Below the pieces are notes generated by a model that searched no databases, had not been told where the DNA came from, and was given only the letters and a program-made list of their open reading frames with translations. Source: Pseudomonadota bacterium (GTDB lineage Bacteria; Pseudomonadota; Gammaproteobacteria; Burkholderiales; Burkholderiaceae_C). From it: 64,000 nt of DNA. This document shows positions 14,676 through 44,673 of the stretch, one piece after another. The stretch covers positions 52,665-116,664 of the forward strand of contig JAJZWA010000004.1 in assembly GCA_021846965.1 (NCBI GenBank), given 5' to 3'. Numbering within the stretch: position 1 is the first letter of the stretch; every line of letters begins with the position of its first letter. The position numbers and the translations under genes were made by a program.

Positions 14676-16474
14676 TGACTCCCGCGTTCTGGACCCTCGT
14701 GGGAGCCTTGTTCGTGGCGCTGCTGCTGGCGGGCAGGCCGCTGGGCCTGTACATGGCCGCGCTGGCCGAGGGGCGCATGCCCCGCGCACTGCTCGCGCTG
14801 GAGGCCCGCGTGCTGGGTCTGGCGGGCGCGCACCCTGACGGGGAAATGAGCTGGGGCGCCTATGCGCGCGCCTTGCTATTGTTCAATTTCCTGGGCGTGC
14901 TGGCGCTGTATGCCCTGCAGCGCCTGCAGGCGGTGCTGCCGCTCGACCCCCGGCAGCTCGGGGCGATCAGCCCCGGCTCCGCCTTCAACACCGCCATCAG
15001 CTTCGTCACCAACACCAACTGGCAGGGCTACGCGGGCGAGAGCACCATGGGCAACCTGGTGCAGATGGCGGGGCTGGCGGTGCAGAACTTCCTGTCGGCG
15101 GCCACCGGCATCGCGGTGGCCTTCGCGATGGTGCGGGGCTTCGCGCGGCGCAGCGCGTCGACCATCGGTAATTTCTGGGTCGACCTGCACCGCATCACGA
15201 GCTACGTGCTGCTGCCGCTGTCCGTCGTGTTCGCCATCGTGTTGGTGAGCCAGGGCGTGCCGCAGACCTTGCGCGCCGAACGCGCGGTCGACCTCATCGC
15301 CCCGGTCGGTTTCCAGGTGCCCGCGACCGATGCCCAGGGGCATCCCGTGGTCGACGCCAAGGGGCAGCCGGTGATGGCGGCCTCGCAGGCCGCGCGGCAG
15401 ATCCTGCCGCTGGGTCCGGTGGCCTCGCAGGAGGCGATCAAGGAACTCGGGACCAACGGCGGCGGTTTCTACAACGCCAATTCGGCGCATCCCTACGAGA
15501 ATCCGAACGCCCTGACCAACGGTCTGGAAATCTTCGCCCTGCTGTTGATCTCGGTGGCGCTGACCTTCACCTTCGGTCGCATGGTCGGCGACAAGCGCCA
15601 GGGCTGGGCATTGCTGGCGGCGATGGCCGTCATGCTCGGCGTGGCGATGGCGGCGGAGGCGCACTTCGAGCAGCAGGGCAACCCCGCGCTGGTCGCGTTG
15701 CACGTGGACCAGAAGGCCAGCGCCCTGCAATCGGGCGGCAACATGGAGGGCAAGGAGACGCGCTTCGGAATCGCCTCCACCGCGGTATTCACCGCCGCCG
15801 CCACCGGCACCTCCACGGGTGCGGTGAATTCAATGCTCGACTCCAATACTCCGCTCGGCGGCCTGGTTCCGATGCTGCTGATGCAACTCGGCGAGGTCGC
15901 TCCCGGGGGGACCGGCACCGGCCTGTACGGCATCCTGATGGTGGCGCTGATGGCGGTGTTCGTGGGCGGCCTGATGATCGGACGCACGCCCGAGTACCTG
16001 GGCAAGAAGATCGAGTCCTTCGAGATGAAGATGGTCTCGATGGGGCTGCTGATCTCCCCGCTGCTGGTGGTGATCGGCACGGCGGTCGCGTCGGTCAGCG
16101 CCGGCGGGCTGGCCGGGCTGGCCAACCCAGGCGCGCACGGCTTCTCGGAGATGCTCTACGCCTTCAGTTCGGCGTCCAACAACAACGGCAGCGCCTTCGC
16201 CGGCCTGAGCGCCAACACGCCTTTCTACAACCTGAGCCTGGGTCTGGCGATGTGGTTCGGTCGCTTCGTGTCCATCGTCGCGGCGCTGGCCATCGCTGGC
16301 TCGCTGGCGTCGAAGAAGCGCCTGGCCGCATCCAGCGGAACCATGCCCACGCACGGAGCGCTGTTCGTCAGCCTGCTGATCGGCACGGTGCTGCTGGTGG
16401 CCGCGCTCACCTTCCTGCCCGCGCTGGCCCTGGGCCCGATCGCCGAGCATCTGGCGCTGTGGGCCGGACATTGA
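14675..16474 (+). CDS. kdpA: K+-transporting ATPase subunit A
   Basis: [35 protein letters not shown]. Confidence 0.98.
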
Positions 16475-16490
16475 TTCGCGACGAAGGACG

Positions 16491-27223: not shown

Positions 27224-27262
27224 ATCATCCGGGGGAGCTTGGATTTCACGGGGACGCCATTC

Positions 27263-28156
27263 ATGGACAAATTGCGGGCGATGCGCGGCTTCGTCGCCAT
27301 TGCCGACCACGGCAGTCTCAGCGCCGCCGCGCACGCGCAGGGCGGGTCGCTATCGGCCACCGTGCGCCTGCTGGCGGCGCTGGAGGATCAACTCGGCGTG
27401 CGACTGTTCAACCGCACCACCCGGCGGTTGTCGCTCACCGAGGATGGCCGCCTGTACCTCGAGCGGGCGCGGCGCATCCTGGCCGACCTGGACGAGGCCG
27501 ATCGCATGGTGGGTGCCGGGCGCGCCGAGCCCGCGGGGGTGTTGGGCATCACGGCCCCGGTGCTGTTCGGGCAGTATCACGTGGCTCCCGCGGTGGCGCG
27601 GTTCCTGCAGCGCTATCCGCGCGTGCAGGTGCGACTGGTGCTGCTCGATCGCGTGGTCAACCTGGTCGAGGAAGGGCTCGACGTGGGTATTCGCATCGGG
27701 CATCTGCAGGATTCCTCCCTCGTCGCGCTGCGCGTGGGAGAGATCCGCCGGGTGGTGGTGGCCAGCCCCGAGCTGCTGCAGCGTTGCGGCACGCCGAGCC
27801 ATCCCCGCGAGCTGGCCGATCTGCCCTGCCTGCGCTTCGACAGCGCCGAGGCAGGTGTCTGGAGTTTTCGCGACCGGGCGCAGGGCACCGAGTTCAAGGT
27901 CCCGGTGCAGGGCGCCCTGCAATGCAACCTGGCCGCGCCGGTCCTGCACGCCTGCGCGCAGGGCCTGGGCTTTTGCCGGGTGCTGTCCTACCAGGCCGCG
28001 CCCTGGCTGGAGCAGGGGCGTCTGCGCATCGTGCTGGAGGACTTCGAGGTGGAGCCCTGGCCGGTCAGCCTCACCTACCCCAGCGCGCGCTGGCTGTCGG
28101 CACGCACGCGCGCCTTCCTCGATGCCATGTCCGAGGAATTGCGCGACGCTTTGTGA
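27263..28156 (+). CDS. LysR-family transcriptional regulator
   Basis: [62 protein letters not shown]. Confidence 0.96.
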
Positions 28157-28329
28157 ACAATGTCGCCGCAAAGCGCGACTACGGGCTTTCTCGCAAGGCA
28201 GGGCCGGGCGTCGGATGTATCCTTGGGCACCCCCTGCGTGCCTTCGCGCCGGCCCGGATCGGCGCGCGGCACGCAGTTCACGCCACGGTCCGGTCCGTCG
28301 GCGCCAACCTTTTCACACTAGCGAGACCC

Positions 28330-29958
28330 ATGCTCCAAAAACTTCGCATCGGACCGCGGCTCACCCTGGCCTTCGCAATACTCGTTCTCCTGTTGTTGGC
28401 GACCAGCGCCTTCGGGGTCATGCAGCTCTCGCGCATCGACGCCACGCTCAAGGACATCATCACCGTGCGCGTGGCGGCCGAGCGAGCCGCCAACACCGCG
28501 TTCAGCAATTTCCAGGGCACCACCCGCGTGACCCTGGTCTGCCTGCTGCAATACAACTGCGCGGAAAACAATGTCAAGCAGATCCACGCCAACCAGAAAT
28601 CGACCAACGTCGCAGTGACCCAGCTGTCGCATATGGTGCTGGATCCGAAGGCGGCGGCCGACGTCCACGCCCTGCAGACCGCGCTGCATGCCAGCCGCGG
28701 GGCCGAGCTGGCCGTGCTGGCCAAGATGAACGCCGGGGACTTCGCCGGCGCCACGCAGGCCTACCTGCAGCAGTCGCTGCCCAGGATCGGCGCGCTGCAG
28801 GGCGCGATGGAAAAGCTGCTCGCCGACCAGAAGGCGGACATCGACGCCATGTACGCGGCCAGCCAGGCCAACTACCACGCCACGGTCAAGCTCAGCATCG
28901 GCGCCGGGGTGCTGGGGGTGGTGGTGGCCGTGGTGCTGGCGCTGCTGATCACCCGCTCCATCGCGAGCCCGCTGGGCGAGGCGGTGAAGGTCGCGCAGGC
29001 CGTGGCCGGAGGGGACCTGACGGTGCGGGTCGATTCCAGCGCGCGTGACGAGACCGGTGCGCTGCTGCGGGCCATGCAGGAGATGGTCGATCGCCTGGGC
29101 ACGGTGATCGGCTCGGTACGTCAGTCGGCCTCGCAATTGCTGGCCGCCTCGGCGCAGGTGTCCTCCACCTCGCAGAGCCTGTCGCAGTCGGCATCCGAAC
29201 AGGCGGCCTCGGTCGAGGAGACCTCGGCGACCCTGGAGCAGGCGAGCGCGTCCATCCGCCAGAACGCCGACAACGCGCGCCTGACCGACACCACGGCCCA
29301 GCAGGCCGCCAGGCAGGCGCAGGAAGGGGGCGCGGCGGTGCAAGGCACCGTGAGCGCCATGCAGTCCATCGCCGAGCGCATTTCCATCGTCGACGACATC
29401 GCCTACCAGACCAATATGCTGGCGCTGAACGCGGCCATCGAGGCCGCCCGCGCCGGCGAGCATGGCAAGGGCTTCGCCGTGGTCGCCGCCGAGGTGCGCA
29501 AGCTGGCCGAGAAGAGCCAGGCGGCGGCGCGGGAGATCAGCGACCTGGCCTCCTCCTCGGTGAAACAGGCCGACCGCGCCGGCAAGCTGCTGGCCGAGGT
29601 GCTGCCGGCGATCGGCAAGACCTCCGACCTGGTGCAGGAGATCAACGCCGCCTCCGAGGAGCAGGCCACGAGCATCCAGCAGATCAACCAGGCGGTGGCC
29701 CAGCTCTCGGCCGTGACCCAGCAGAACGCCTCGGCCTCCGAGGAACTCGCCGCCAGCGCCGAGGAGATGAACGGCCAGGCCGCCGCGCTGCAGGACTCGG
29801 CCGCGCAGTTCCGCATGCCCGGCGACGAGGCGCAGGAGGCCTCGCTCGCGCATGCGGGCGCAGCGCAGGCCGAGACGCGAAGCCGCGCAGAGCCCATGCC
29901 GGTGCCCGAGCTCGCGCCGGCGGCGCCCGCGCAAGGCGACGGTTTCGTGAAATTCTGA
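28330..29958 (+). CDS. Methyl-accepting chemotaxis protein (4HB-type sensor)
   Basis: N-terminal TM, HAMP-like region, hairpin [46 protein letters not shown]. Confidence 0.96.
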
Positions 29959-30020: not shown

Positions 30021-30593
30021 CTAGCCCGGGCGTGTCGCCGAAGGGCGCAGTTGTTCCAGCAATTCGCGGGTGGTGGCGGTCTCGCCCAGGCGCGGGAAGA
30101 TGCGCTGCACGCTGTTGGCGTGCGCCTCCCCGCTGAGATCGGTCATCGCGTCCACGGCGAGCGCGACGTTGAAGCCCAGCTCGTGCGCCTGGCGCGCGGT
30201 GGACTCGACGCCGATGCTGGTGGCGATGCCGCACAGCACCACCTGGGTGACGCCCCAGCGACGCAGGTACTCCTCGAGGTCGGTGCCGGTGAAGGCTCCC
30301 CAGGTGCGCTTGGTCACCAGGTGGTCGCCCGCCTGGGCGCCCAGCTCGGGCAGCAGGGTGGACCAGTTGGGATCCTGCGACGCCGCCCGACGCGGCTGCT
30401 CGCAGCGGCCGGGGGCGGTGCCGGCGACATTGACCAGCACCACGGGCAAGCCGCGGCCCCGGAAGGCGTTGGCGAGGCGCGCTGCCTGCGCCACCACCGC
30501 CGGGACCGGGTGGGCGGTGGGCAACACGGCAACTCCCTGCTGCAGGTCGATGACGATCAGTGCGGTCTTGGGGTCGAGGGGGCTCAGGCTCAT
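30021..30593 (-). CDS. Isochorismatase-family cysteine hydrolase
   Basis: TALIVIDLQQGV; VTKRTWGAFTGTDLEEYLRRWGVTQVVLCGIATSIGVESTARQAHELGFNV. Confidence 0.93.
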   Translation of the reverse strand: MSLSPLDPKTALIVIDLQQGVAVLPTAHPVPAVVAQAARLANAFRGRGLPVVLVNVAGTAPGRCEQPRRAASQDPNWSTLLPELGAQAGDHLVTKRTWGAFTGTDLEEYLRRWGVTQVVLCGIATSIGVESTARQAHELGFNVALAVDAMTDLSGEAHANSVQRIFPRLGETATTRELLEQLRPSATRPG

Positions 30594-30672
30594 CGATGCG
30601 AATGCGAGGATGGTGGCCAGAGTGTAGTCGCTCGACCCCGTGGGGGCGTCGGCCGCTGGGGCGGCCGCGGGC

Positions 30673-33087
30673 TCACTGGAAGGAATACAGGTACTCGGCG
30701 TACACCGCGTTGACCGAGACCGTCGGGTTCTGCTCATTCCAGGGCAGCACGCTGGTGGGCGTGTAGCCCATCATCTGCGCCAGGTACATGTAGTCGTTCA
30801 CGTCGTAGCGGGCGTACATGTAGCCGAAGTGCAGGGCGCTTTGCGGGTTGAGCTTGTACTTGGCGGCCAGATCCAGGCGCGTGATCTTGGTCTTCAGGTC
30901 CGGCACGTTGCCGCAGGTGTAGCCGCTGGTGCTGGGCGTGGCGCAGCTCAGCGCCGTGGCGGCGGCCTTGCTGCCGCTGCCCGGAACGACGGCCGTGTTC
31001 TCGTTGTTCGTGTCCTCCGAGTACGAGAGGCTCGCCATCAGGCTGAGCTTGTCGTCCATCAGCCCGGCCTGCTTGAAGGCCGCTCCCAGGGTGAGCGCCT
31101 GATCGCGCAGCCCGGTCACCCAGTTGAAGCCGGCGCCGCTGGCGGCGGACACGCCGTCGGTGGCCTGGCGCTGCCAGGTGGCGAACACGCTGGCGCTGCG
31201 CTGGTTGCCCAGCTGATAGTCGCCTTCCAGGTCGACGGTGGCGTCGTGGCCGCTTTGCCGGCCCAGCACCGAGTCGCCGTACTGGTCGTTGCCCACGGCC
31301 CCGTCGAGACTCATGGTGAACTCGCTGTTGACCATCCAGTTCACCCCGAAGTGCCCCTGCAGCTGCCTGCGCGAGGCATCGAAGAAGGCCACCCAGCCGG
31401 GCATGTCGGCCTCACCGCTGTTCATGTCGGTGATCGGGTTGTAATAGCTGGTGTTGAGGGTCGCCTTGCGGTTGGCCCATTTCACGCCCGCGAGGAAGTT
31501 CAGGCTGCCGTGGGGGCGCAGGTAGTAGTCCAGCTTGACGGTGTTTTCCCGGCTCTGGGGCACCGCTGCGCAACCCGTGGGCGACACCCCGGTGCCGGTG
31601 TACAGATCGTTGGGCGTCACCAGGTTGGCCGTGTAGGCGTTGCTGTCGCACCAGCGCTCCACGCGTTCGTTCTGCAGGGCCAGGTGCAGGCGCTGGCCGG
31701 GCAGGAAGCGCCAGTCGCCGCCCAGCTTGGTCTGCAGGTGGCTGTTGCTCATCGGAATGTTGTACACGCTGAACCAGTCGGTCCCGGGGCCGCTGTCGGG
31801 GGCCTCGAAGTTGTACAGGTACGAGGCCGTCTGGTTGTCGCGCTTGCTGTAGATCATGCCCGCCGACAAGGTCATGGTCTTCGTGGTCTGGTGGGTCAGG
31901 CTCCAGTTGGCGTGCTGCGTGACCACCAGTCCGTCCAGCGAGCCCACGGGCAGTCCGCCGAGGCTGGTCGGGCCGGTCCCGATCTGCGCCGGCTCGTAGG
32001 CGTAGGACATGTTCTGGGTATTGCGCCCGTAGGAATAGCCGGCGACCAGCAAAGTCTTCGGATTGAAGTGGTAGCCGCCGCTGAACTGCAGTTCATTGTC
32101 GGTGTTGCTCGGCGGCGTGGATTCGACGTCCAGCGGGTAGGTGCTGCCGACCACGGCCCCGGTGGTGACGTTGTTGCGGTAGGGGTTGGGAAACCACACG
32201 CCGTTGTAGTCGTCGTGGAACATCGAGCCGTAGTAGGCACCGGTGAAGAATCCTTTCTCACCCGCCCAGTTCAGGGCCAGCTGGAAGTTGTTGGTCTTGT
32301 ACTGGGTCGGATAGGGCAGACCGAGGGTCTTCTGCCCGCCGAGATTCGACGTGAACCGGGTTCCCGACTGGGTGATGATGCCGCCGGTCAGTGAATCGAC
32401 CATGGCCGAGGCCAGGATGGCGCCGGTCTCGCGGATGCTGGTCCAGTGGAAGGTCAGGTCCCATCCCAACTTCAGCTGGTGGCTGGCGTCGAGCCGGGTG
32501 GTGTTGCGCTGCACGTACAGGTGGTCGGTGTGGAAGAACTGCTGCTGGTCGGCCGTCAGGCCCTGCGTGCCGGTTCCGGCGGTGCTGATGTAGCCGAAGG
32601 TGGACGGCAGGGTGTACACGTTGCCGCCGGGGTTGCCGAGCAGTGGGGTCTGGAAGCTGCCCGGGGCCGTGGTCAGCGAATCGCCGCCGTAGTTGCGCAA
32701 CTGGTCGAAGCTCAGGCCCAGGCTCCAGCTGCCCTGGTTGGCGATCCCGCCGGACACCGAGCGCGAGGTCGTGCCCAGCTTGCTTCCCTGCACGAACCAG
32801 GTGTTCGCTCCGGGTTGCTGGCCGTAGCCGTCGCCTCCACGCAGATCGAAGCCGCCCAGCAGGGTCGGGCCCGAGTTCTCCAGTCCGTTGTATTGCCCGA
32901 ACAGGTCCGAGCTCTGGTTGAGGTAGATGCCGCCGATGTCGAGGGTGTTGGTCGGCTTGATCAACTTGTCGAGGGCTCCGTCGGCCATGGCCGACGGGGC
33001 GACCGACGCTACGGCAAGGGTGGCTAGGGCGGCGCGCAGGGCGATGGTGATGGGCCTGGCGCGCAGCACGGTCTTGCGATGTGTCAT
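30673..33087 (-). CDS. MtrB/PioB-family decaheme-associated outer membrane beta-barrel protein
   Basis: ~800-aa signal-peptide protein with alternating strands ending in YAEYLYSFQ; directly downstream of a decaheme cytochrome gene. Confidence 0.88.
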   Translation of the reverse strand: MTHRKTVLRARPITIALRAALATLAVASVAPSAMADGALDKLIKPTNTLDIGGIYLNQSSDLFGQYNGLENSGPTLLGGFDLRGGDGYGQQPGANTWFVQGSKLGTTSRSVSGGIANQGSWSLGLSFDQLRNYGGDSLTTAPGSFQTPLLGNPGGNVYTLPSTFGYISTAGTGTQGLTADQQQFFHTDHLYVQRNTTRLDASHQLKLGWDLTFHWTSIRETGAILASAMVDSLTGGIITQSGTRFTSNLGGQKTLGLPYPTQYKTNNFQLALNWAGEKGFFTGAYYGSMFHDDYNGVWFPNPYRNNVTTGAVVGSTYPLDVESTPPSNTDNELQFSGGYHFNPKTLLVAGYSYGRNTQNMSYAYEPAQIGTGPTSLGGLPVGSLDGLVVTQHANWSLTHQTTKTMTLSAGMIYSKRDNQTASYLYNFEAPDSGPGTDWFSVYNIPMSNSHLQTKLGGDWRFLPGQRLHLALQNERVERWCDSNAYTANLVTPNDLYTGTGVSPTGCAAVPQSRENTVKLDYYLRPHGSLNFLAGVKWANRKATLNTSYYNPITDMNSGEADMPGWVAFFDASRRQLQGHFGVNWMVNSEFTMSLDGAVGNDQYGDSVLGRQSGHDATVDLEGDYQLGNQRSASVFATWQRQATDGVSAASGAGFNWVTGLRDQALTLGAAFKQAGLMDDKLSLMASLSYSEDTNNENTAVVPGSGSKAAATALSCATPSTSGYTCGNVPDLKTKITRLDLAAKYKLNPQSALHFGYMYARYDVNDYMYLAQMMGYTPTSVLPWNEQNPTVSVNAVYAEYLYSFQ

Positions 33088-33109
33088 CTCGTGCTCCTTG
33101 TCTGGATCT

Positions 33110-34123
33110 CTAGCGCTGCAGGTAGGCGCCGGCGGGGTTGTTCGAACCGTGGACCATGATGTGGCAGTTCATGCAGCCCTCGCCCACGCCTCCTGCTGCC
33201 GGGCTACCCGGGATGGCGCTGAATCCGGTTGCGGTCGACGGGCCGGCGACGCCGGGGCCGAACATGTTCTTGCTCTGGTGCGGGCCGTCATGGCATTCCT
33301 GGCACAGGAAGGGCGGACGAGCCTTGAGCAGGGGCGCGATGTTCGAGCCGTGCGGGTTGTGGCAGTTGGTGCACTTCTCGGTGACCGGCTCGTGTTCCCA
33401 CAGGAAGGGGCCGCGCTTGTCGGCGTGGCAGGTCCAGCAGGTCTCGTTGATGGTCGCCTTCTTCATCAGGAAGGGGCCGACCGAGCCGTGCGGATTGTGG
33501 CAATCCGAGCACATCATCTTGCCCTCGGGCACAGGGTGGTGCGACAGCTTCATGAAGTCCGCGCGCCGGTCCTTGTGGCAGGTGTAGCAGACGGTCTGCT
33601 GCAGCCCCTTGGTGCGCACGGGATCGACCGCGGCGTGCACCTTGTGGCAGTCGTTGCAGGCCAGGCCGTTGACCTGGTGCGGGCTGCCCTCCCAGTGCGT
33701 GCGCTGGGTGCCGGAGTGGCAGGCCAGGCAGGCTTCGGCGCGGTTCGCGGCGCTGGACTCGGAGTAGGGCCCGGTGCGGTTGAACACCACGTCAGGCGGC
33801 GCGATCTTCCCGTTGACCGGCCCGCGCAGGTGCGCCAGGCTGGGGCCGTGGCAGCTCTCGCAGGTGGGGGTGCGCGGGTCTCCCGTGACCCCCATGGGGG
33901 TCTGGAAGAAGGCCAGCACCGGCTTGGACTCGTTCTCGTCGTGGCAGCGCGTGCACTTGGCGTCCTGCGCCAGGTGCTCCCTGGAACTCTGCGCGGCCGA
34001 TACGGACTCTTGCTGCGGGGCGCCCAGCGCCGGCAGCCGGATGGGGTCGGCGGCATGCGCCGCGACGGCCCAGCTGCCGAGCAGGATCGCGGCAGCCACG
34101 ATGACTTTCTGGGTGATCTGCAC
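33110..34123 (-). CDS. DmsE/MtrA/PioA-family decaheme c-type cytochrome
   Basis: Signal peptide and exactly ten CXXCH motifs (CTRCH, CESCH, CLACH, CNDCH, CYTCH, CSDCH, CWTCH, CTNCH, CQECH, CMNCH). Confidence 0.95.
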   Translation of the reverse strand: MQITQKVIVAAAILLGSWAVAAHAADPIRLPALGAPQQESVSAAQSSREHLAQDAKCTRCHDENESKPVLAFFQTPMGVTGDPRTPTCESCHGPSLAHLRGPVNGKIAPPDVVFNRTGPYSESSAANRAEACLACHSGTQRTHWEGSPHQVNGLACNDCHKVHAAVDPVRTKGLQQTVCYTCHKDRRADFMKLSHHPVPEGKMMCSDCHNPHGSVGPFLMKKATINETCWTCHADKRGPFLWEHEPVTEKCTNCHNPHGSNIAPLLKARPPFLCQECHDGPHQSKNMFGPGVAGPSTATGFSAIPGSPAAGGVGEGCMNCHIMVHGSNNPAGAYLQR

Positions 34124-34166
34124 CTTGTGCTCCCTAGGAACGGAAGAGGGGATGGCGGACTCGGGC

Positions 34167-34508
34167 CTACTTCTTCAGGCTCAGGATCCAGTCGGCGATC
34201 TGATCGAGTTCGGCCTGGCTCAGCGTCGGGTTGGGCGGCATCGGGGTTCCCTGGACTCCGGCGTGCACGTCCTGGTCGAGCGCCTTCTCGGCCTTGTCCT
34301 CGCCCATGGCGGCGAACTTGGCGGACAGGTCGGTGAAGCTCGGCCCGACCTTGGTGCCTTCGATGGCGTGGCAGGTGAAGCAGGCGTGTTGCTGGACCAG
34401 CGCCTTGCCAGCGGCGATGTCGGCCTTCTCCGCGGCATGCGCCGCGGGCACGGCAAGGGCGAAGGCGGTGGCGACGGCGGCGAGACGGTGCAGCTTGAGG
34501 GCTTTCAT
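34167..34508 (-). CDS. Class I monoheme cytochrome c
   Basis: Signal peptide; ACFTCHAIEGTKVGPSF; MPPNPTLSQAELDQIADWILSLKK. Confidence 0.93.
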   Translation of the reverse strand: MKALKLHRLAAVATAFALAVPAAHAAEKADIAAGKALVQQHACFTCHAIEGTKVGPSFTDLSAKFAAMGEDKAEKALDQDVHAGVQGTPMPPNPTLSQAELDQIADWILSLKK

Positions 34509-34739
34509 GATGGGGATCCGAAGCAAGAGGATGCGTAGGGGGCAGCGCCAGGCGCCACCGGTGGTTCATGGCGTCCATTCTTCTTGGGGATAACCCGTGG
34601 GCGCCATCGGCGCAGGCCCAAAATGCCCATCGGAAAATTCCGACCCCGCATCGGAATCACGGCGGCGGCGCGCAGGCTCGCGCCGAGCGCGGCAGCGCTG
34701 CGGAACTTCGGCGGGGTCAGGGGCGCGCGAGGCGCGCCG

Positions 34740-35390
34740 TCAGTCCATGGTGGCGTCGGCCAGCCCGTGCTGCAGCGCGTAGCGCACGAGGTCGACGTCG
34801 CGTTCCACACCCATCTTCTCGAGGATGTGCGACTTGTGGGTGCTGATGGTCTTGACGCTCAGGCTCAGTTCGCTGGCGATGTCGGTCAGGCTGCGCCCGT
34901 CGACGATGCGCTGGAAGATCTCGAACTCCCGATTCGACAGCAGGGTGTGCGCCGGCACGTCGCGCGGGCGGGACACGTCCGCGGCCAGCAGCTCCGCCAG
35001 CTTGGCGCTGACGTACACCCCGCCCCGGGCCACCTTGCGCATCGCCGCCAGCAGCACGTCGCCGTCGACCTCCTTGGTGAGATAGCCCGAGGCGCCGGCG
35101 CGCATCGCGCGCACCGCGTACTGCTCCTCCTGGTGCATGGTGAACACCAGGATGGGAAGCTGCGGCCGCTCGGCCTTGACCAGGCGGATCAGGTCCAGCC
35201 CGTTGCGCCCCGGCATCGACAGATCCAGGATCAGCAGGCCCCAATCGCGCCGGCGCACCAGTTCGAGAAGGTCGTGGCCATTGCCCGCCTCCGCCGCGCA
35301 GCGCAGGTCCTCGGTGTCTTCCAGGATGTTGCGCAGGCCATTGCGGATGATCGCGTGGTCGTCGGCCAGCAGGACTTCGATGCGGTTCAT
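34740..35390 (-). CDS. NarL/FixJ-family response regulator
   Basis: Receiver domain LLILDLSMPGRNGLDLI and LuxR-type HTH LSNREFEIFQRIVDGRSLTDIASELSLSVKTISTHKSHILEKM. Confidence 0.96.
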   Translation of the reverse strand: MNRIEVLLADDHAIIRNGLRNILEDTEDLRCAAEAGNGHDLLELVRRRDWGLLILDLSMPGRNGLDLIRLVKAERPQLPILVFTMHQEEQYAVRAMRAGASGYLTKEVDGDVLLAAMRKVARGGVYVSAKLAELLAADVSRPRDVPAHTLLSNREFEIFQRIVDGRSLTDIASELSLSVKTISTHKSHILEKMGVERDVDLVRYALQHGLADATMD

Positions 35391-37411
35391 GTCGTCTCTC
35401 CCTCGGCTGCGTGCTCGTGCAGGGGCATGTCCAGCTCGATCTCGGTGCCGCCGCCCTGCGCGGCGCGGATATGCAGGCGGGCGCCCAGCGAGGTCGCGCG
35501 CTCGCGCATGCTGAGCAGCCCGACGCCCGAGCCGATGCGACCCGGGTCGATGCCCCGGCCGTTGTCGCGGATCCTCAGGCTCAGCCGGCCCTCGCGCTCG
35601 AACAACTCGATGCGCACCCGCGTGGCCTGGGCGTGGCGCGCGACATTGGTCAGCGACTCCTGCACGATGCGGAACAGGCCGGTCGACATCGCGTCTCCCC
35701 GCACATGCCCGGCCGCCGCGAGGTCCAGTTGCACCTCGATGGAGCTGCGTCGGCCGAATTCCTCCGCCAGCCAGCTCAGCGCCTCGCCGAAGCTGAGGTC
35801 GTCGAGCATGCGCGGGCGCAGCTCGGTGGAAATGCGCCGCACCGAGGCCATCGCCCCGTCCAGGAGCTGGCGCATGGACTCGAAGGTCTGCGGACTCAGG
35901 GCACGCCCGTCGCGCGAGCGCGCGATCAGGCGCGACAGGTCGAGCTTGACGCCCGTGAGCAACTGTCCGAGGTCATCGTGCAGTTCCCGCGAGATGCGCG
36001 CGCGCTCCTCTTCGCGTACCGATTGCTGCGCCGTGGACAGGCGTCGCAACTCGCGGTTCATCTGCTCCAGCTCCGCCTGGCGTCGTCGCCGCTCGGTGAC
36101 GTCGCGCAGCACGGCCGTGAACTGCAGCGCGCCGTCGATGCGGGTCTGCGACACCGCCGATTCCACCGGGAACTCACTGCCGTCGGCGCGTCGGCCCAGC
36201 ACCTCCCGGTTCGGCGCCATGTCCCGCGAGGCCACGGCGGATTGCGCGAAGGCATGCATGTGCCCGTTGTGCGCGCCTTGCAGGCGAGGGGGGATGAGCA
36301 GGTCCAGCGGCTGGCCCAGGGCCTCCTGGGCGGGGATCCCGAACATGCGCTCGGCGGCCGGGTTGAACAGGATGATGCGGTGCTTGGCGTCGACCGACAC
36401 CATGGCATCCATGACCGAATCGATGGTGCGCCGGTAACGGTCGTCGGCCTCGCGCAGCGCCTGATCCAGTTTTTGCTCACGCTGCAACTCGTAGCCCAGC
36501 AGCAGCGCGGCCGTGCCCAGGAAGCCGCAGACCAGCAGCGCGCCCAGCGCGATCGGCGCGGCCAGTTCGCGCCACGACGCCAGGGTCTGCGCGCGGGTCT
36601 GCTCCACTCCCACCAGCAGCGGCTGACCGGGAACCCGGGACAGGCTCAGCAACTGATCGCCCTCGCCCCGCAGCACGTCGGCGCGCAACAGCGAGCCCGG
36701 CGGCGGAAGCTTCAACCCGGAGAGCTCCGGCGCCTGCTGGTCCAGCAGGGAATCGCGCCGCGGCAGGCTGGCCAGCAGCCGACCGTCGGCGAGGTACAGC
36801 GCGACCGGACGCCCGAAGTCCTGCAACACGTAGCGGAACAGCGATTCCAGCTGCCTGCGCGCGATGCCCGCCACCAGCACACCGCGCAGGGAACCGTCGG
36901 GGTTGCGCAGTGCGCAGGCCAGGTGCACGGTCCATGTGGCGCTGGCGCGGCTGCTCACCGGGCCGCCGAGATACAGGCCGCGCGCGCCCTCGCGCGCGAA
37001 GGCCCGGTAGTAGCCGCGATCGGCCACCGAGAGCGGCTGCGCCGGAAAGGCTCGGGTGCTGTTCACCACCTGGCCTTGAGGGTTCACGATGAACAGCGTG
37101 CCCGACTCGCCGAGCCCATGCGCATGCGCGGCCAGCAGCAGGTGTACGGGCAGGCTGTCCAGCCCGAGACGACCGATGAAGGAGGAGTCCAGCCGATCCG
37201 CGACCGTGCGCAGCGTGGCATCGCTGCGCGCGAAATTCTGTGCCGTCTGCCGTGCCAGCATGCGGGTCAGCATGTCGGTGCGTTGCTCGTCCCGGGCGAG
37301 CGCGCGCTCGCGCAGGCCCCACAGCAGGGCCAGCACGGACACCGAGACCGCCAGGATGGCCAGCACCGCGAACAGGGCGACCACGCGCGCGGGCTGAATT
37401 CGGATCGACAT
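35387..37411 (-). CDS. Sensor histidine kinase (periplasmic Cache-like sensor, PAS, HisKA_3)
   Basis: Two TM segments flanking the sensor; PAS RIILFNPAAERMFGIPAQEALGQ; ARISRELHDDLGQLLTGVKLDLSRL. Confidence 0.94.
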   Translation of the reverse strand: MSIRIQPARVVALFAVLAILAVSVSVLALLWGLRERALARDEQRTDMLTRMLARQTAQNFARSDATLRTVADRLDSSFIGRLGLDSLPVHLLLAAHAHGLGESGTLFIVNPQGQVVNSTRAFPAQPLSVADRGYYRAFAREGARGLYLGGPVSSRASATWTVHLACALRNPDGSLRGVLVAGIARRQLESLFRYVLQDFGRPVALYLADGRLLASLPRRDSLLDQQAPELSGLKLPPPGSLLRADVLRGEGDQLLSLSRVPGQPLLVGVEQTRAQTLASWRELAAPIALGALLVCGFLGTAALLLGYELQREQKLDQALREADDRYRRTIDSVMDAMVSVDAKHRIILFNPAAERMFGIPAQEALGQPLDLLIPPRLQGAHNGHMHAFAQSAVASRDMAPNREVLGRRADGSEFPVESAVSQTRIDGALQFTAVLRDVTERRRRQAELEQMNRELRRLSTAQQSVREEERARISRELHDDLGQLLTGVKLDLSRLIARSRDGRALSPQTFESMRQLLDGAMASVRRISTELRPRMLDDLSFGEALSWLAEEFGRRSSIEVQLDLAAAGHVRGDAMSTGLFRIVQESLTNVARHAQATRVRIELFEREGRLSLRIRDNGRGIDPGRIGSGVGLLSMRERATSLGARLHIRAAQGGGTEIELDMPLHEHAAEGETT

Positions 37412-37652
37412 CTCGAGGGGGCACCGCCGCGGCGGCACCGGAAGGGCTTTCCCGCGCCGATGCTAGGAGCGGCAGGGGCCGGCCCGGCTTGCGCTCGATC
37501 AAGCCGGGGCGAGGTGCCGCGCGTGCCTTTGTCGTTTTTGGCGGAATGTGGATTTGCTTGATTCCGCGCAAAGGGGCCGCACGCTCGCGTGCCTATCGTT
37601 CAGCCTCGAAACCTCATGGGCGCCGGAGCCGGCGACCCCGGGTCGCTTCGAG

Positions 37653-38294
37653 ATGCCTGTCATGAACGCCACCGCCGAGCACGAACTGCGAGCCACCGGG
37701 CTGAGCTGTCGCCGCGGGAATCGCGTCTTGTTCGAGGACCTCGGTTTCGAGCTCGGCCCGGGGCAGTGGCTGCATGTTCGCGGAGCCAACGGCTCGGGCA
37801 AGACCAGCCTGCTGCGGCTGCTGACCGGCCTGGCCCGCCCCGAGACCGGAATCGTCGCGTGGAATGGCGTCGAGCTTTCGCGCGCCGGAGAGGACTACCG
37901 TGCCGCGCTGGCCTACTTCGGGCATCGCCACGCCGTGAAGGATGATCTGAGCGCGCTGGAGAACCTGCGCCTGGGCGCCGCGCTCGACGGTCGTGCCCTC
38001 GACCCGCGCGCCGCCTGCGCCGCCCTGTGGCGCGTGGGACTGCGCGGGCGCGAATCCCTGCCCATGCGGGTGTTGTCCCAGGGCCAGCGCCGGCGAGCCC
38101 TGCTCGCGCGCGTGCTGGTGCGGGGCGCCAGCCTGTGGGTTCTTGACGAGCCCTTCGCCGCGCTGGACGCGGACGGCGTGGACATGGTGAGTTCGCTGGT
38201 GCAGGAGCATCTGCGCGGCGGTGGCAGCGCGGTGCTCACCAGCCACCAGCCGATCGCGCTGCCCGGGGGCTGCAGCCTGGAACTCGGCGCATGA
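37653..38294 (+). CDS. ccmA: Cytochrome c biogenesis heme exporter ATPase CcmA
   Basis: ABC ATPase, HVRGANGSGKTSLLRLLTGL, VLSQGQRRRALLARVLV; operon context. Confidence 0.96.
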   Translation: MPVMNATAEHELRATGLSCRRGNRVLFEDLGFELGPGQWLHVRGANGSGKTSLLRLLTGLARPETGIVAWNGVELSRAGEDYRAALAYFGHRHAVKDDLSALENLRLGAALDGRALDPRAACAALWRVGLRGRESLPMRVLSQGQRRRALLARVLVRGASLWVLDEPFAALDADGVDMVSSLVQEHLRGGGSAVLTSHQPIALPGGCSLELGA

Positions 38295-39043
38295 AACCGA
38301 TGAGCCCGACCATCCAGCGCGGCGCGTCGCCCCACGTGGTAATCGATGCCGTCGCAGCCGCCGCGCCCGTGGCGAGCACCAGCCCCCTGCTGGGCGTGCT
38401 GCGCCGCGAGCTGCTGCTGACCCTGCGCCGGCGCAGCGAGGTGGCCACCGTGCTGGTGTTCTTCGTCATGGTCGCCAGCCTGTTCCCGCTGGCCATCGGC
38501 CCGGAGCCGCAGCGCCTGCGGGTCATCGGCCCCGGCGTGCTATGGGTGGGCGCGCTGCTGTCGACCCTGCTCGGGCTGCCGCGCATGTTCGGCGACGACT
38601 TCGCCGACGGCACGCTGGAGCAGATGCTGCTCTCGCCGACCCCCTTCGCCTGGCTGGTGGTGGGCAAGATCGTCGCCCACTGGCTGGTCACCGGCTTGCC
38701 TCTGGTCCTGCTGGCGCCGCTGCTGGGCCTGCAATTCGGGCTGGCTGGGCAGGCGCTGGGCCTGCTCGTGCTGGCCCTGCTGCTGGGCACGCCGCTGCTT
38801 TCGCTGCTCGGAGCCATCGGTGCCGCGCTGACCCTCGGCGCGCGCGGCGGCGGCGCCTTGCTCGCCTTGCTGCTGCTGCCCCTGTACGTGCCCGCGCTGG
38901 TGTTCGGCGCGGGCGCGCTCACCGCCCAGGCCGCCGGCCTGGACCCCTCGGGATATCTCGCTCTGCTGGGCGCCATGCTGGTGGTCGCAGTGTTCCTCGC
39001 ACCGCCCGCCGCTGCCGCCGCCGTCAGGATCGCCCTCGAATGA
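38291..39043 (+). CDS. ccmB: Heme exporter protein CcmB
   Basis: LGVLRRELLLTLRRRSEVATVLVFFVMVASLFPLAIGPEP. Confidence 0.96.
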   Translation: MKPMSPTIQRGASPHVVIDAVAAAAPVASTSPLLGVLRRELLLTLRRRSEVATVLVFFVMVASLFPLAIGPEPQRLRVIGPGVLWVGALLSTLLGLPRMFGDDFADGTLEQMLLSPTPFAWLVVGKIVAHWLVTGLPLVLLAPLLGLQFGLAGQALGLLVLALLLGTPLLSLLGAIGAALTLGARGGGALLALLLLPLYVPALVFGAGALTAQAAGLDPSGYLALLGAMLVVAVFLAPPAAAAAVRIALE

Positions 39044-39789
39044 AAACCTCGAAGCTACGCTGGACCCACTACGCCAGCCCGGCCACCTTCTACGAACCGG
39101 CGGGGCGCCTCGTGCCCTGGTTCGCAGGGGCGGCGCTGCTGCTGGCCCTCGCCGGCACCTGGGTGGGCTTTTTCCTGGCCCCGCCGGACGCCACCCAGGG
39201 TGATGGTTACCGCATCATCTTCCTGCATGTGCCGGCGTCCTGGATGTCCATGTTCATCTACGTGGTCATGGCGGGCTGGTCGGCCCTGGGCCTGGCCTTC
39301 AACACCCGCCTGTCGGGGATGATGGCTTCCGCGCTGGTGCCCACCGGGGCGATGTTCACCGCCCTCGCGCTGGTCACCGGCTCGCTGTGGGGCAAGCCGA
39401 TGTGGGGTACCTGGTGGGTGTGGGACGCTCGCCTGACCTCCGAGCTGATCCTGCTGTTCCTGTACCTGGGGCAGATCGCGCTGCGCGCGGCCATCGACGA
39501 TGCGCGTCGCGCCGACAAGGCCTGCGCCGTGCTCGCCGTGGTCGGCGTGGTCAACATCCCGGTGATCTATTTCTCCGTGCAGTGGTGGAACACCCTGCAC
39601 CAGGGCGCCTCGATCTCCCTCACCCATGCACCCTCGATGGCCCTCACGATGCTCGCGGGCATCCTGCTGATGACCGGGGCCGCATGGATGTACGCCATTT
39701 CCACGACCCTGGCACGACTGCGGGTCATCATCCTCGAGCGCGAGCAGGACTCGAGCTGGCTCGGGCATCTGATGGAGGCTTCATCATGA
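39040..39789 (+). CDS. ccmC: Heme exporter protein CcmC
   Basis: FLHVPASWMSMFIYVVMAG; WGKPMWGTWWVWDARLTSELILLFLYLG. Confidence 0.97.
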   Translation: MKTSKLRWTHYASPATFYEPAGRLVPWFAGAALLLALAGTWVGFFLAPPDATQGDGYRIIFLHVPASWMSMFIYVVMAGWSALGLAFNTRLSGMMASALVPTGAMFTALALVTGSLWGKPMWGTWWVWDARLTSELILLFLYLGQIALRAAIDDARRADKACAVLAVVGVVNIPVIYFSVQWWNTLHQGASISLTHAPSMALTMLAGILLMTGAAWMYAISTTLARLRVIILEREQDSSWLGHLMEASS

Positions 39790-40025
39790 TCTGGCATTCC
39801 ACGGGCGAGTTCCTCGCCATGGGCGGCTATGCCCTGTACGTGTGGGGCAGCGTGGCGGCCTGCGCGGCGGCGATCGCGGGCGAGGTGGTCGCGCTGCGAC
39901 TGCGTCGTCGCGCCGCGCTGCGCATGCTGCAGCAGCAGGGAGCGGTGCGCCGCATCGAACGCGCCGAGCGCGCGCGCGGCGGCGAGCGCGATCTGGCGGT
40001 TCCGCTGCAGCGGGAGGCGGCATGA
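39786..40025 (+). CDS. ccmD: Heme exporter protein CcmD
   Basis: Small single-TM MIWHSTGEFLAMGGYALYVWGSVAACAAAIAGEVV; position. Confidence 0.92.
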   Translation: MIWHSTGEFLAMGGYALYVWGSVAACAAAIAGEVVALRLRRRAALRMLQQQGAVRRIERAERARGGERDLAVPLQREAA

Positions 40026-40462
40026 AGGCGCGCAGTCGTCGCGGCGCCTTGATCGCCGCCGGCCTGGCAGGCCTGGGCGTGGCCACCGCCCTGGTGCTGC
40101 ACGCCTTGAACGGCGCCATCGAGTTGTACGTGACGCCCACGCAGATCGTCGAGGGCCAGGTACCCCATGACGGGCTGTTCCGGCTCGGCGGGCTGGTCGA
40201 GAAGGGCAGCCTGCGGCGCCAGGGCACGAAGGTGCGCTTTCTGGTCACCGATACGGCCAAGCAGGTTTCGGTGGTCTACGACGGCATCCTGCCCGACCTC
40301 TTCGCCCCGGGGCGCGGCGTGGTGGTGCAGGGCAGGCTGGGGCCGAACGGCACCTTCCACGCCACCCAGGTGCTGGCCAAGCACAGTGCCAACTACATGC
40401 CGCCCGAGGCGCGCAACGCGCTCGACCAGGCACGGCAGACCCAGAGGACCCTACGGCCATGA
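40022..40462 (+). CDS. ccmE: Heme chaperone CcmE
   Basis: FRLGGLVEKGSLRRQGTKVRFLVTDTAKQVSVVYDGILPDLFAPGRGVVVQG; KHSANYMPPE. Confidence 0.97.
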   Translation: MKARSRRGALIAAGLAGLGVATALVLHALNGAIELYVTPTQIVEGQVPHDGLFRLGGLVEKGSLRRQGTKVRFLVTDTAKQVSVVYDGILPDLFAPGRGVVVQGRLGPNGTFHATQVLAKHSANYMPPEARNALDQARQTQRTLRP

Positions 40463-42399
40463 TTCCCGAACTCGGACATTTCGCGCTGCTGCTGGCCCTG
40501 CCCGTTGCGCTGGTGCAGGCGCTGCTGCCGCTGCTGGGCGCATGGCGCGGCCAGCGCACGTGGATCGCGCTGGCCAGGCCGGCCACCCGCGCCACCTTCG
40601 TGCTCGTGGCCTTTGCCTTCGGCTGCCTGCTGTGGTCGCTGCTGCACGATGACTTCTCGGTGCTGTACGTGGCCGAGAACTCCAACACCCTGCTGCCCAC
40701 CCTCTACAAGATCGGCGCCGCCTGGGGCGGCCACGAAGGCTCCTTCCTGCTGTGGCTGCTCATGCTTTGCGGCTGGTCGCTGGCGGTGTCCTTCTTCTCC
40801 CGCAGCCTGCCCGAGGAAATGGTCGCGCGGGTGCTGGGGGTGCTGGGGAGCATCGCCTTCGGCTTCCTGGTCTACATCCACCTGAGCTCCGATCCCTTCC
40901 AGCGCCTGCTGCCGGCGGCGATGAACGGGCGTTCGCTCAACCCCCTGTTGCAGGACCCGGGCATGATGGGCCATCCGCCGATGCTCTACATGGGCTACGT
41001 GGGCTTCGCCGTGGCCTTTGCCTTCGCCATCTCGGCGCTGCTGGCGGGGCGCCTGGACGCGGCGTGGGCGCGCTGGTCGCGGCCCTGGACCCTTGCCGCC
41101 TGGGTCAGCCTGACCCTGGGCATCGCGCTGGGCTCCTACTGGTCCTACTACGAGCTGGGATGGGGCGGCTGGTGGTTCTGGGATCCGGTGGAGAACGCAT
41201 CCTTCATGCCCTGGCTCGTGGGTACCGCGCTGATCCACTCGCTGGCCGTCACCGAAAAGCGCGGCAGCTTCCGCAACTGGACCGTGCTGCTGGCCATCGG
41301 GGCCTTCGGCCTGTCCCTGCTGGGCACCTTCCTGGTGCGCTCGGGCGTGCTGTCGTCCGTGCACGCCTTCACCACCGATCCGCGCCGGGGCATGATGATC
41401 CTGCTGCTGTTCGCGCTGTACATCGGCGGCTCGCTGCTGCTGTTCGCGCTGCGCGCCCCGGGACGCGGACCGGGCGGGAGCTTCGAACTGGTCTCGCGCG
41501 AGAGCCTGCTGCTGGGCAACAACGTGCTGCTGGTGGTCGCCGCCGCCAGCGTGCTGCTGGGAACCCTGTATCCGCTGGTGGTCGAGGCCCTGAACCTGGG
41601 CAAGCTGTCGGTCGGGCCTCCGTATTTCAACAGCGTGTTCGTGCCGGTGGTGGTCCCGCTGTTCCTGCTGGCCGCGGTCGGTCCGCTGGCGCGCTGGCGC
41701 AGTGAGCGGCTGGCCGACCTGGCGCGCCCGATGCGGGTGCCGGCGCTGGTGGCGCTGCTGGCCGCGATCGCGCTGCCGCTGTCGCTGGGGCGCTGGGATG
41801 CCGGCGCCGCGATCGGCAGTTTTTGCGCGCTGTGGCTGGCCACGGCCGTGTTCCAGCAAGTGCGCAAGCGCCTGCGCAGCGGGATGCCCCCTGGCGGCTA
41901 CTGGGGCATGCAGCTGGCCCACCTCGGCCTCGCCGTGAGCATCGTCGGCGTCGCGCTGGTCAGCCACTACCAGGCCGAGCGCGGCCTGCGCATGCAGCCC
42001 GGCGACTACACCCGGCTGGCCGGCTACACCGTGCGCTTCGAGGGCGTCAAGACACTCCCCGGCCCCGACTACACGGCGCAGCAGGGCGTGTTCGAGTTGT
42101 TGCGACACGGCAAGCTGCTTGCCGTGCTGCGTCCCGAGAAGCGCGACTACTTCAGTTCCTCGATGGAAATGACCGACACGGCGATCGACACCGGCCCCTT
42201 GCGCGACATCTACGTTTCCCTGGGCGCGCGCCTGCGCAATGGCGCATGGGCGGTGCGCGTGTACTACAAGCCCTTCGTGATCTGGATCTGGTGCGGCGCG
42301 CTGCTGATGGCCCTGGGCGGCGTGGCTGCCGCCGCAGACCGACGCTACCGCACCCTCAGCCGCCGCGCGGCCCAAGCCCTGGAGGCCCTCGCATCATGA
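40459..42399 (+). CDS. ccmF: Heme lyase subunit CcmF
   Basis: WGGHEGSFLLWLLML; YYELGWGGWWFWDPVENASFMPWL. Confidence 0.98.
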   Translation: MIPELGHFALLLALPVALVQALLPLLGAWRGQRTWIALARPATRATFVLVAFAFGCLLWSLLHDDFSVLYVAENSNTLLPTLYKIGAAWGGHEGSFLLWLLMLCGWSLAVSFFSRSLPEEMVARVLGVLGSIAFGFLVYIHLSSDPFQRLLPAAMNGRSLNPLLQDPGMMGHPPMLYMGYVGFAVAFAFAISALLAGRLDAAWARWSRPWTLAAWVSLTLGIALGSYWSYYELGWGGWWFWDPVENASFMPWLVGTALIHSLAVTEKRGSFRNWTVLLAIGAFGLSLLGTFLVRSGVLSSVHAFTTDPRRGMMILLLFALYIGGSLLLFALRAPGRGPGGSFELVSRESLLLGNNVLLVVAAASVLLGTLYPLVVEALNLGKLSVGPPYFNSVFVPVVVPLFLLAAVGPLARWRSERLADLARPMRVPALVALLAAIALPLSLGRWDAGAAIGSFCALWLATAVFQQVRKRLRSGMPPGGYWGMQLAHLGLAVSIVGVALVSHYQAERGLRMQPGDYTRLAGYTVRFEGVKTLPGPDYTAQQGVFELLRHGKLLAVLRPEKRDYFSSSMEMTDTAIDTGPLRDIYVSLGARLRNGAWAVRVYYKPFVIWIWCGALLMALGGVAAAADRRYRTLSRRAAQALEALAS

Positions 42400-42929
42400 A
42401 CCGCGCATGGAGAATCTCGCTGGTCCTGCTCGTGTTCGCCGGACTGCTCGCACTGCTCGACATCGGCTTGCACCACGATCCGCACCGCATCCCCTCGCCG
42501 CTGATCGGCAAGGCGGCGCCGCAGTTCGACGCCCCCCTGCTCATGCCCACCACGGGGAGCTTCTCCCCGCAACAGCTCCGGGGCAAGGTGTGGCTGCTCA
42601 ACGTGTGGGCTTCCTGGTGCACCTCCTGCCGCGAGGAGCACCCGCTGCTGCTGGCCTTCGCCCACGGCAGGCACGTGCCCCTGGTGGGCCTGGACTACAA
42701 GGACGACCCCGTCGCCGCGCGCCACTGGCTGGCCGAGGCCGGGGACCCCTACGACATCGTGGCCAGCGACGGCAACGGGCACATCGGCATCAATTACGGG
42801 GTCTACGGGGTGCCCGAGACCTATGTGATCGACGGCGATGGCCACATCGTCTACAAGCAGATCGGCCCGCTCACCGTGCGCGTGCTGAAGGACAAGATCC
42901 TGCCCCTGGTCCGGAGGTTGTCGTCATGA
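42396..42929 (+). CDS. ccmG: Thiol:disulfide interchange protein CcmG/DsbE
   Basis: LLNVWASWCTSCREEHPLLLAF; YGVYGVPETYVIDGDG. Confidence 0.97.
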   Translation: MNRAWRISLVLLVFAGLLALLDIGLHHDPHRIPSPLIGKAAPQFDAPLLMPTTGSFSPQQLRGKVWLLNVWASWCTSCREEHPLLLAFAHGRHVPLVGLDYKDDPVAARHWLAEAGDPYDIVASDGNGHIGINYGVYGVPETYVIDGDGHIVYKQIGPLTVRVLKDKILPLVRRLSS

Positions 42930-43390
42930 AGCGCCTGTTCCTGATGCTCCTGCTCGCCCTCGCAGCCTCCTCGGCCTGGGCCGGACTGGCGCCCCCGCTG
43001 GCGCACGACGAGGCGGCCGAGCAGCGCATGCTGACCATCACCCGCAACCTGCGCTGCCTGGTGTGCCAGGACGAGTCGCTGGCCGCCTCCCAGGCCAGCC
43101 TGGCGCGCGACCTGCGCGCCGAGGTGCGCACGCTGATCGAACGCGGCTACACCGATCAGCAGGTGGTCGACTACCTGGTCGCCCGCTACGGCAACTATGT
43201 GCGCTTCCGCCCGCCCTTCGACCCCGAGACCTGGGCGCTGTGGCTGGGTCCCTACGTGCTGCTGGCGCTCGGCCTCGGGGCGCTGGCGCTCACCATACGC
43301 GCTCGTCTGCGGCGCAGCGAGGCCCCGCTGGACGCGGCCGATATGGCGCGTGCCCAGGCCCTGCTGGCGCGCGACGGAGAACTCGAATGA
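42926..43390 (+). CDS. ccmH: CcmH (LRCLVCQ-type apocytochrome reductase subunit)
   Basis: ITRNLRCLVCQDESLAASQASLARDLRAEVRTLIERGYTDQQVVDYLVARYGNYVRFRPPF. Confidence 0.97.
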   Translation: MKRLFLMLLLALAASSAWAGLAPPLAHDEAAEQRMLTITRNLRCLVCQDESLAASQASLARDLRAEVRTLIERGYTDQQVVDYLVARYGNYVRFRPPFDPETWALWLGPYVLLALGLGALALTIRARLRRSEAPLDAADMARAQALLARDGELE

Positions 43391-44673
43391 CCACTTTCCT
43401 GCTTGCCGCCGCGCTGCTCACCGCGGTGGTGCTGGCGATCCTGGTGCTGCCCCTGCTGGGGCAGCGATCGAGCGCCGGTGTCGACCGCGCCGCGGTGAAT
43501 GCACGCCTGCTGCGCGAGGACATGGCCGCGCTGGAGCGCGAGCGCGCCGCGCTGGGCGAGGCGCGCTACGAACAGGCGCGCGAGGAACTGGCGCGGCGCG
43601 TGCTGGCCGACACCGCGCCCATGCCGCGCGGGCGCGGCGCCTCCAGCGCGCTGCCCACCATCGCCGGCCTGCTGCTGGGCTTGCCCGTCTGCGCTGCTCT
43701 GCTGTATGAGCTGATGGGCACTCCGGCGGCGCTGGCCGGCAATCCGCCCAGCGCCGCCGCCGCCACGCAGGCAGCCGCCCCGGCGGCCCAGAGCCAGGTG
43801 CAGAAGATGGTCGATTCCCTGGCCGCGAAACTCGCCGCCCATCCCGACGATCCGGCTGGCTGGGCCATGCTCGGCCGCTCCTACGCGGTGCTCGGCGACT
43901 TCGGCAAGGCGGCGGCCGCCTACGCGCGCGTCGGTCCGCAACTGCAGCACCACGCGCGCTGGCTGGCCGAATACGCCGACGCCCTGGCCATGAGCGCCAA
44001 CGGCAGTCCGCTGGGCAAGCCCGAACGCCTTGCGCGCCAGGCCCTGGCCATCAACCCCAACAACCTGCTGGCGCTGATGCTCGACGGCTACGCCCACGCG
44101 CTGCGGGGCGACGACCGCGGTGCCTTGCCCCTGCTCGAGCACGCCAGCCGCGAGGTGGTGGCCGGCTCCGAGGACGCCGCTTTCCTCGACCACGTGATCT
44201 CCCAGGTGCGCCGTCGCATGGGACTGACGGCCGCCGAGAACGCCACGCCGGGGCCGGCCGGCGCCAGCAGCGCTGCGCAGGCGCCCGCGGTGCGGAAGGT
44301 CTCCACGGCCGAGACCGCGAGTCCCGTGCGCCAGCAGCCGGTGGCCCTGATGCAGGTGCGGGTGAGCGTCGCGCCTTCCCTGCGGGCGCAGGCGCAGGGG
44401 CGCACCCTGTTCGTGATCGCCCGCGTGCCCGGCGAGCGCATGCCGCTGGCGGCGGCCCGGCGCGCCGATGCCAGGCTGCCGCTGCAGGTGGCGCTGAGCG
44501 ACGCGGACTCCATGAGCCCTTCGCAACTCCTGTCGAGCGCGCCCAGCGTGCAGATCGAGGCCCGCCTGTCGGCCACCGGGGACGCGATGCCGGCCAGCGG
44601 CGACCTCTACGGCACGGCCAGCGTGGCGCGCGGCGGCAGCGTCGACGTGCTCATCGACCACCGTCGCCCCTGA
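43387..44673 (+). CDS. ccmI: CcmI (TPR-containing)
   Basis: N-terminal TM pair, TPR region LAAHPDDPAGWAMLGRSYAVLGDFGKAAAAY; operon context. Confidence 0.93.
   Translation: MTTFLLAAALLTAVVLAILVLPLLGQRSSAGVDRAAVNARLLREDMAALERERAALGEARYEQAREELARRVLADTAPMPRGRGASSALPTIAGLLLGLPVCAALLYELMGTPAALAGNPPSAAAATQAAAPAAQSQVQKMVDSLAAKLAAHPDDPAGWAMLGRSYAVLGDFGKAAAAYARVGPQLQHHARWLAEYADALAMSANGSPLGKPERLARQALAINPNNLLALMLDGYAHALRGDDRGALPLLEHASREVVAGSEDAAFLDHVISQVRRRMGLTAAENATPGPAGASSAAQAPAVRKVSTAETASPVRQQPVALMQVRVSVAPSLRAQAQGRTLFVIARVPGERMPLAAARRADARLPLQVALSDADSMSPSQLLSSAPSVQIEARLSATGDAMPASGDLYGTASVARGGSVDVLIDHRRP

Follow-up and report, generated by a model that had tools for sequence, protein, structure and literature searches.

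How electrons from a Mto-type outer-membrane conduit enter the respiratory chain is an unsettled question, and one that is raised by three genes at 30673-34508 of a 64,000-nucleotide stretch of DNA (the window; contig JAJZWA010000004.1 of assembly GCA_021846965.1, a member of the Burkholderiaceae_C). For Sideroxydans, a split has been proposed between a low-potential branch (PmcA/ImoA) and a high-potential one that leads from MtoD to an oxidase (2026, PMC13390432). The genus of the window genome apparently lacks the low-potential branch and has a carrier with predicted His/Met ligation, and would thus be a natural test of this two-branch split. We analyzed the locus in the window genome (3.66 Mb, 94% complete) and, for presence and absence, in 28 genomes of the genus including that one. 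Our overall explanation, which we hold to be somewhat probable, is that the locus encodes a Mto-type electron-uptake conduit connected through a c551-like carrier to an oxidase, with a dedicated two-component pair and operator and a linked cytochrome c maturation (ccm) operon.

On the evidence of profiles, phylogeny and a predicted fold that matches MtrB, the operon is a real outer-membrane conduit of the MtrAB/MtoAB/PioAB kind. Specifically, a class I monoheme cytochrome c in the MtoD position (34167-34508, minus strand, 113 aa; PF00034) is followed on the same strand by the decaheme cytochrome c MtoA (33110-34123, 337 aa), which has a GTG start with a good Shine-Dalgarno sequence, and by the MtrB/PioB-family barrel MtoB (30673-33087, 804 aa). 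The gaps between them, 43 bp and 22 bp respectively, are operon-like, and the three genes (34508-30673) are probably co-transcribed. The decaheme had exactly ten CXXCH motifs, compared to a maximum of 3 in 20,000 residue shuffles, passed TIGR03508 above cut-off, and matched MtrA of the Shewanella baltica Mtr complex with an E-value of 2e-65 (6R2Q chain A, which bears another molecule name in the PDB copy). Its first heme was at residue 57, with no long N-terminal extension. The barrel exceeded the cut-offs of PF11854 (5e-88) and TIGR03509, and its AlphaFold model (predicted template modeling score 0.72, built on a 22-row alignment) had MtrB (6r2q_B) as its top Foldseek match in the PDB at an E-value of 4e-39, about 30 orders of magnitude ahead of the next (1e-9). 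A PHROGs search returned nothing for either protein, and the whole genome contained one barrel and one decaheme. Shewanella MtrAB (6R2Q) is alike in MtrA and MtrB homology and in barrel fold, but the window lacks MtrC and CymA, and its barrel has 804 residues versus 695 in 6R2Q.

An earlier note, made from the letters alone, had described these three genes, with the monoheme cytochrome as the first, as a putative porin-cytochrome conduit. It had also reported ten CXXCH motifs in the decaheme and no obvious N-terminal CXXC in the barrel. All of this was borne out, and the only cysteines of the barrel were at positions 480, 506, 715, and 725. The missing CXXC says little, because just one of the 79 MtrB homologues compared has this motif, and we dropped it as a marker of direction.

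A scan of named genomes recovered 80 loci with related decahemes, and phylogenetic reconstruction of 85 decaheme sequences (a quick search without bootstrap, with supports from the Shimodaira-Hasegawa-like approximate likelihood ratio test, SH-aLRT) placed the window sequence in a clade of 22 (SH-aLRT 93), itself enclosed in a clade of 33 (SH-aLRT 99). Its partners in the clade were homologues from Sideroxydans, Gallionellaceae, Polaromonas, and Methylophilaceae. An adjacent MtrC-like cytochrome was present at none of the 22. Beside the barrel, most had the monoheme gene, and a NapC-type tetraheme was encoded there in many. We therefore assign the conduit to the Mto type, rather than to the MtrCAB or DmsE types, and this placement supports membership of the window decaheme in a Sideroxydans-like Mto clade without MtrC. 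The Mto label rests on named homologues from Sideroxydans and Gallionellaceae metagenome-assembled genomes, the MtoA of Sideroxydans lithotrophicus ES-1 itself being absent from the tree. The phylogeny, which the earlier note had proposed as a check, favored the Mto side of its leaning toward Pio or Mto systems.

Compared to known systems, the Mto of S. lithotrophicus ES-1 is alike in having a decaheme-in-porin without MtrC, a monoheme cytochrome in the cluster, and Sideroxydans homologues in the shared clade. It differs in that the window has no NapC-type ImoA, a monoheme with a Met motif rather than bis-His ligation, and a Cache-PAS kinase with a NarL-type regulator. Because two features of Sideroxydans Mto, the NapC partner and the bis-His carrier, are missing, we call the conduit a Mto-type variant. 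PioABC of Rhodopseudomonas palustris TIE-1 is likewise an MtrC-less pair of decaheme and barrel with a high-potential soluble carrier, but there the carrier is a high-potential iron-sulfur protein (HiPIP) and not c551-like, and the window decaheme lacks the PioA-type N-terminal extension. No HiPIP (PioC) gene was in the operon; the genome was not searched for HiPIP. The conduit itself is not new, since mtoABD clusters without an inner-membrane redox gene nearby have been published for Thiomonas sp. FB-6 and FB-Cd (He et al. 2017, PMC5566968). These are alike in MtoA, MtoB, and a monoheme in the MtoD position, while the parts of that account drawn on here are silent on regulators, an operator, a ligand swap, and a genome-wide absence of NapC.

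No MtrC/OmcA-like gene was adjacent to the conduit, and none was detected in the genome (best TIGR03507 E-value 0.89), in agreement with the lack of an outer-surface multiheme cytochrome remarked on in the earlier note. That note had suggested a genome check for CymA and MtrC, and neither was found: a NapC/NirT protein of the ImoA/CymA type was absent from the window genome, and across the 28 genus genomes the sole matches to the NapC profile were the decahemes themselves. Closely spaced CXXCH pairs (N 6-36 nt) were uninformative as a genome pattern, the hemes of the decaheme being spaced more widely.

The remaining component, the monoheme cytochrome, departs from MtoD in its predicted distal ligand. 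MtoD of Sideroxydans is a bis-His cytochrome (His47 and His95, 48 residues apart) with a potential of +155 mV, and the hemes of ES-1 MtoA span +30 to -350 mV (PMC4412085). All 50 monohemes compared from outside the genus had a His at about +48 (range +47 to +51, with small indels) from the CXXCH His. Every genus member examined carried a Met motif typical of c551/c552 (PMPPN, MAMPAN, or MMMAH), and in the window protein PMPPN replaced the conserved His at about +48. For one genus member (L035) the ligand is ambiguous because, in addition to the Met motif, a His is present near the MtoD ligand place. The window monoheme was closer to c552/c551 structures in the PDB than to MtoD (4XXL), and judging by its motif it looks still more oxidising than MtoD. 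A biochemical study concluded that MtoD, at +155 mV, is too oxidising to supply ImoA with electrons and probably passes them to a terminal oxidase (PMC13390432). Both aa3 (CtaD) and cbb3 (CcoN) terminal oxidases are encoded in the window genome. Given that no quinone branch was found, and from the more oxidising-looking carrier and these oxidases, we infer a route from MtoA through the c551-like carrier to oxidase.

Two other kinds of protein were observed at the named loci. A membrane protein of ~246 aa, usually with one CXXCH, was located near mtoAB at nine (L036, L048, L050, L053, L060, L062, L063, L071, and L076; for example L076:13641-14381), and the single copy that was scanned matched nothing in Pfam or NCBIfam. 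None of these nine loci had a NapC gene, versus 28 of the 71 others (p 0.02), making the protein a candidate alternative inner-membrane partner; neither the window nor the examined loci of the genus contained it, and it was not sought genome-wide. At L089:3488-5482, an 8-heme MtrC-like protein also matched the cytochrome b561 profile PF01292, just below cut-off, which suggests an integral-membrane multiheme protein rather than a plain surface MtrC.

Upstream of the conduit, on the same strand, were a NarL/LuxR-type response regulator (34740-35390, minus strand, 216 aa; PF00072 and PF00196) and a histidine kinase with, by its domain profiles, dCache-PAS-HisKA_3-HATPase architecture (35387-37438, minus strand, 683 aa). 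The dCache match was below the curated cut-off in the window kinase and above it in the L041 orthologue. Related pairs adjoined the conduit at 19 of the 80 named loci, including those of Polaromonas, Ramlibacter, Aromatoleum, and a Phenylobacterium record, with regulator identities of 57-70% outside the genus. Moreover, pair-bearing loci had in common an intergenic 40-bp operator-like element (TMGGAA-N2-TTCCKA-N19-CCKATA), which in the window is at 34604-34643 (minus strand), with its palindromic core TCGGAATTTTCCGA at 34630-34643.

A matrix built from 8 sites and scanned over 2.7 million positions returned 21 matches above the threshold of 15 bits, all directly upstream of the cytochrome gene of a conduit operon, while the best score away from such operons was 14.4 bits. 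Among the 19 loci with the pair, 18 contributed matches (L104 two of them), and the others were in the window and in L046, where the contig starts shortly ahead of the element; 12 of the matched loci lay outside the training set. The association between element and pair had a Fisher p of 1e-15, which overstates independence because the loci are related. With the 14-mer consensus by itself, the element went undetected in L051, L052, L081, and four members of the genus, all of which the 40-bp matrix recovered. Both palindrome arms had changed together in four genus members (TCAGA...TCTGA), as a dyad-binding protein would require, and the exact palindrome was unique in the window genome. The sole pair-bearing locus without a recognisable element was L059, in which the pair is encoded on the opposite strand. 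These patterns point to control of the conduit operon by the kinase/regulator pair through the palindromic element. In a limited literature search, neither a two-component regulator nor an operator turned up as described for mto/mtr genes of this group.

Some loci differed in this region. L104 had two element copies (L104:6599 and L104:7278), each before a monoheme gene, and a conduit with an adjacent MtrC-like multiheme. In L138 (G020:C64), about 1.3 kb of unrelated sequence (16383-17696) followed the regulator at the end of the contig, in the expected place of the operator-like element, and this is possibly an insertion between regulators and conduit. Near conduits lacking the pair we often observed NtrC-type (L049, L055, L056, L061, L073, L089, L094, L106, and L110) and OmpR-type regulators (L039, L057, L061, L065, L066, L068, L070, L082, L084, and L103), never together with the Cache-PAS/NarL-type pair. 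Regulatory modules thus seem to be swapped as a whole between conduits.

A System I ccm operon begins 109 bp past the kinase on the opposite (plus) strand. It comprised ccmA, the heme exporter ATPase (37548-38294; ABC_tran, and position next to ccmB), ccmB (38291-39043; PF03379, 2e-70), ccmC (39044-39789, approximate start, the C-terminal part of the open reading frame [ORF] 38221-39789; PF01578 on ORF residues 289-460), ccmE (40020-40462, approximate start; PF03100, 7e-32, match at 40121-40405, which is G000:C44:92785-93069), ccmF (40459-42399; PF16327, 1e-115), a thioredoxin-like ccmG (42400-42929, approximate start; Redoxin in the C-terminal part of ORF 41823-42929), ccmH (42930-43390, approximate start; PF03918, 3e-44, in ORF 42407-43390), and ccmI/cycH (43387-44673, approximate start; PF23892 and PF23914 in ORF 43063-44673). 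This set is additional, because System II (ResB) is located elsewhere in the genome. Within the genus, System I ccm co-occurs with the regulators and the conduit: the decaheme was present in 16 of the 28 genomes, CcmE in the same 16 and G017, and the kinase in the same 16, G017, and G003, while 10 genomes lacked all three. We discounted G003 and G017 as exceptions (kinase without decaheme), because their contigs break off at the regulator or kinase, just ahead of the expected conduit genes. Linkage of ccmA-I to mtrCAB, with System II elsewhere, has already been published for betaproteobacteria (Baker et al. 2022, PMC8805035); those conduits have MtrC, unlike the window, and that text does not mention two-component systems or histidine kinases.

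In the electron-uptake reading that we prefer, the decaheme inside the barrel would carry electrons inward through the outer membrane, with Fe(II), either in solution or bound in minerals, as the most likely extracellular donor. The His/Met c551-like cytochrome would shuttle them through the periplasm to a cytochrome c oxidase (cbb3 or aa3) as the high-potential acceptor, with no route to the quinone pool via a NapC-type tetraheme. The Cache-PAS kinase, responding to a putative signal, and the NarL-type regulator would govern the operon via the palindromic operator, and the linked Ccm apparatus would mature the ten-heme protein. Several points weigh against this. According to Baker et al. 2022 (PMC8805035), MtoA and PioA do not make up a clade defined by function, and electron flow through Mtr conduits is reversible, so that direction is not fixed by phylogeny. 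RuBisCO was not found in the window genome, and Calvin-cycle autotrophy on Fe(II) is therefore unsupported; uptake would be mixotrophic, as the absence of RuBisCO suggests. The part missing from the 94%-complete genome could hide NapC or MtrC, although for NapC the genus-wide absence argues otherwise, and the genome-wide search for an inner-membrane partner covered proteins of the NapC type. Lastly, both the distal ligand of the monoheme and its potential are predicted from a sequence motif.

The same conduit could work outward, from quinol through cytochrome bc1 and the c551-like carrier to MtoA and an extracellular acceptor such as Fe(III), in anaerobic or microaerobic respiration. The reversibility of Mtr conduits, the inseparability of MtoA/PioA from MtrA by function, and the lack of RuBisCO would all fit, and a relative within the Burkholderiales, Rhodoferax MIZ03, both oxidises and reduces iron (PMC8552755). 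We nevertheless consider outward flow unlikely, given that neither a CymA/NapC quinol dehydrogenase nor MtrC was found and that a His/Met carrier is expected to be too oxidising for MtoA hemes as low in potential as those of ES-1. Iron might also be incidental, with the conduit serving redox balancing, metal detoxification, or a non-iron donor or acceptor (another metal or an electrode-like mineral). The module is patchy in the genus (16-18 of 28 genomes), the ligand of the sensor Cache domain is unassigned, and the DmsE family name and related clusters show varied substrates; however, the closest named homologues belong to iron-oxidising bacteria (Sideroxydans, Gallionellaceae), and among the identified neighbouring genes no extra surface enzyme such as the molybdoenzyme DmsAB adjoins the conduit, making this distinctly unlikely. 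As for the palindrome, it may instead act as part of the promoter or of the mRNA, or be bound by a different protein, for example a global regulator. It does lie in the 5' region, its CCKATA part resembles a -10 box in some loci, and binding by the regulator is predicted from sequence. Its presence in nearly all pair-bearing loci and in no other informative locus, the symmetrical covariation of its arms, and its genome-unique exact form, which argues against a global regulator, render this alternative rather improbable.

The analysis extends the published conduit in its wiring, its regulation, and its packaging, and of these the regulator-operator module is the most novel part. The earlier note, while right on the conduit and its Mto leaning, had overlooked the regulators and their operator, the ccm operon, the lack of a NapC partner, and the His/Met nature of the carrier. 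We give even chances to the broader proposal that pair and operator form a control module accompanying Mto/Mtr conduits across Burkholderiales and beyond, and that in the genus the high-potential (oxidase) branch is the only one to which the conduit connects, as a natural deletion of the Mto quinone branch. The module would provide a handle on what turns conduits on, and a DNA signature by which regulated conduits might be spotted in genomes.

Finally, the downstream flank of the conduit contained, with no evident link to it, a LysR regulator (27239-28156, plus strand), a methyl-accepting chemotaxis protein (about 28320-29958, plus strand), and an isochorismatase-family hydrolase (30021-30737, minus strand).

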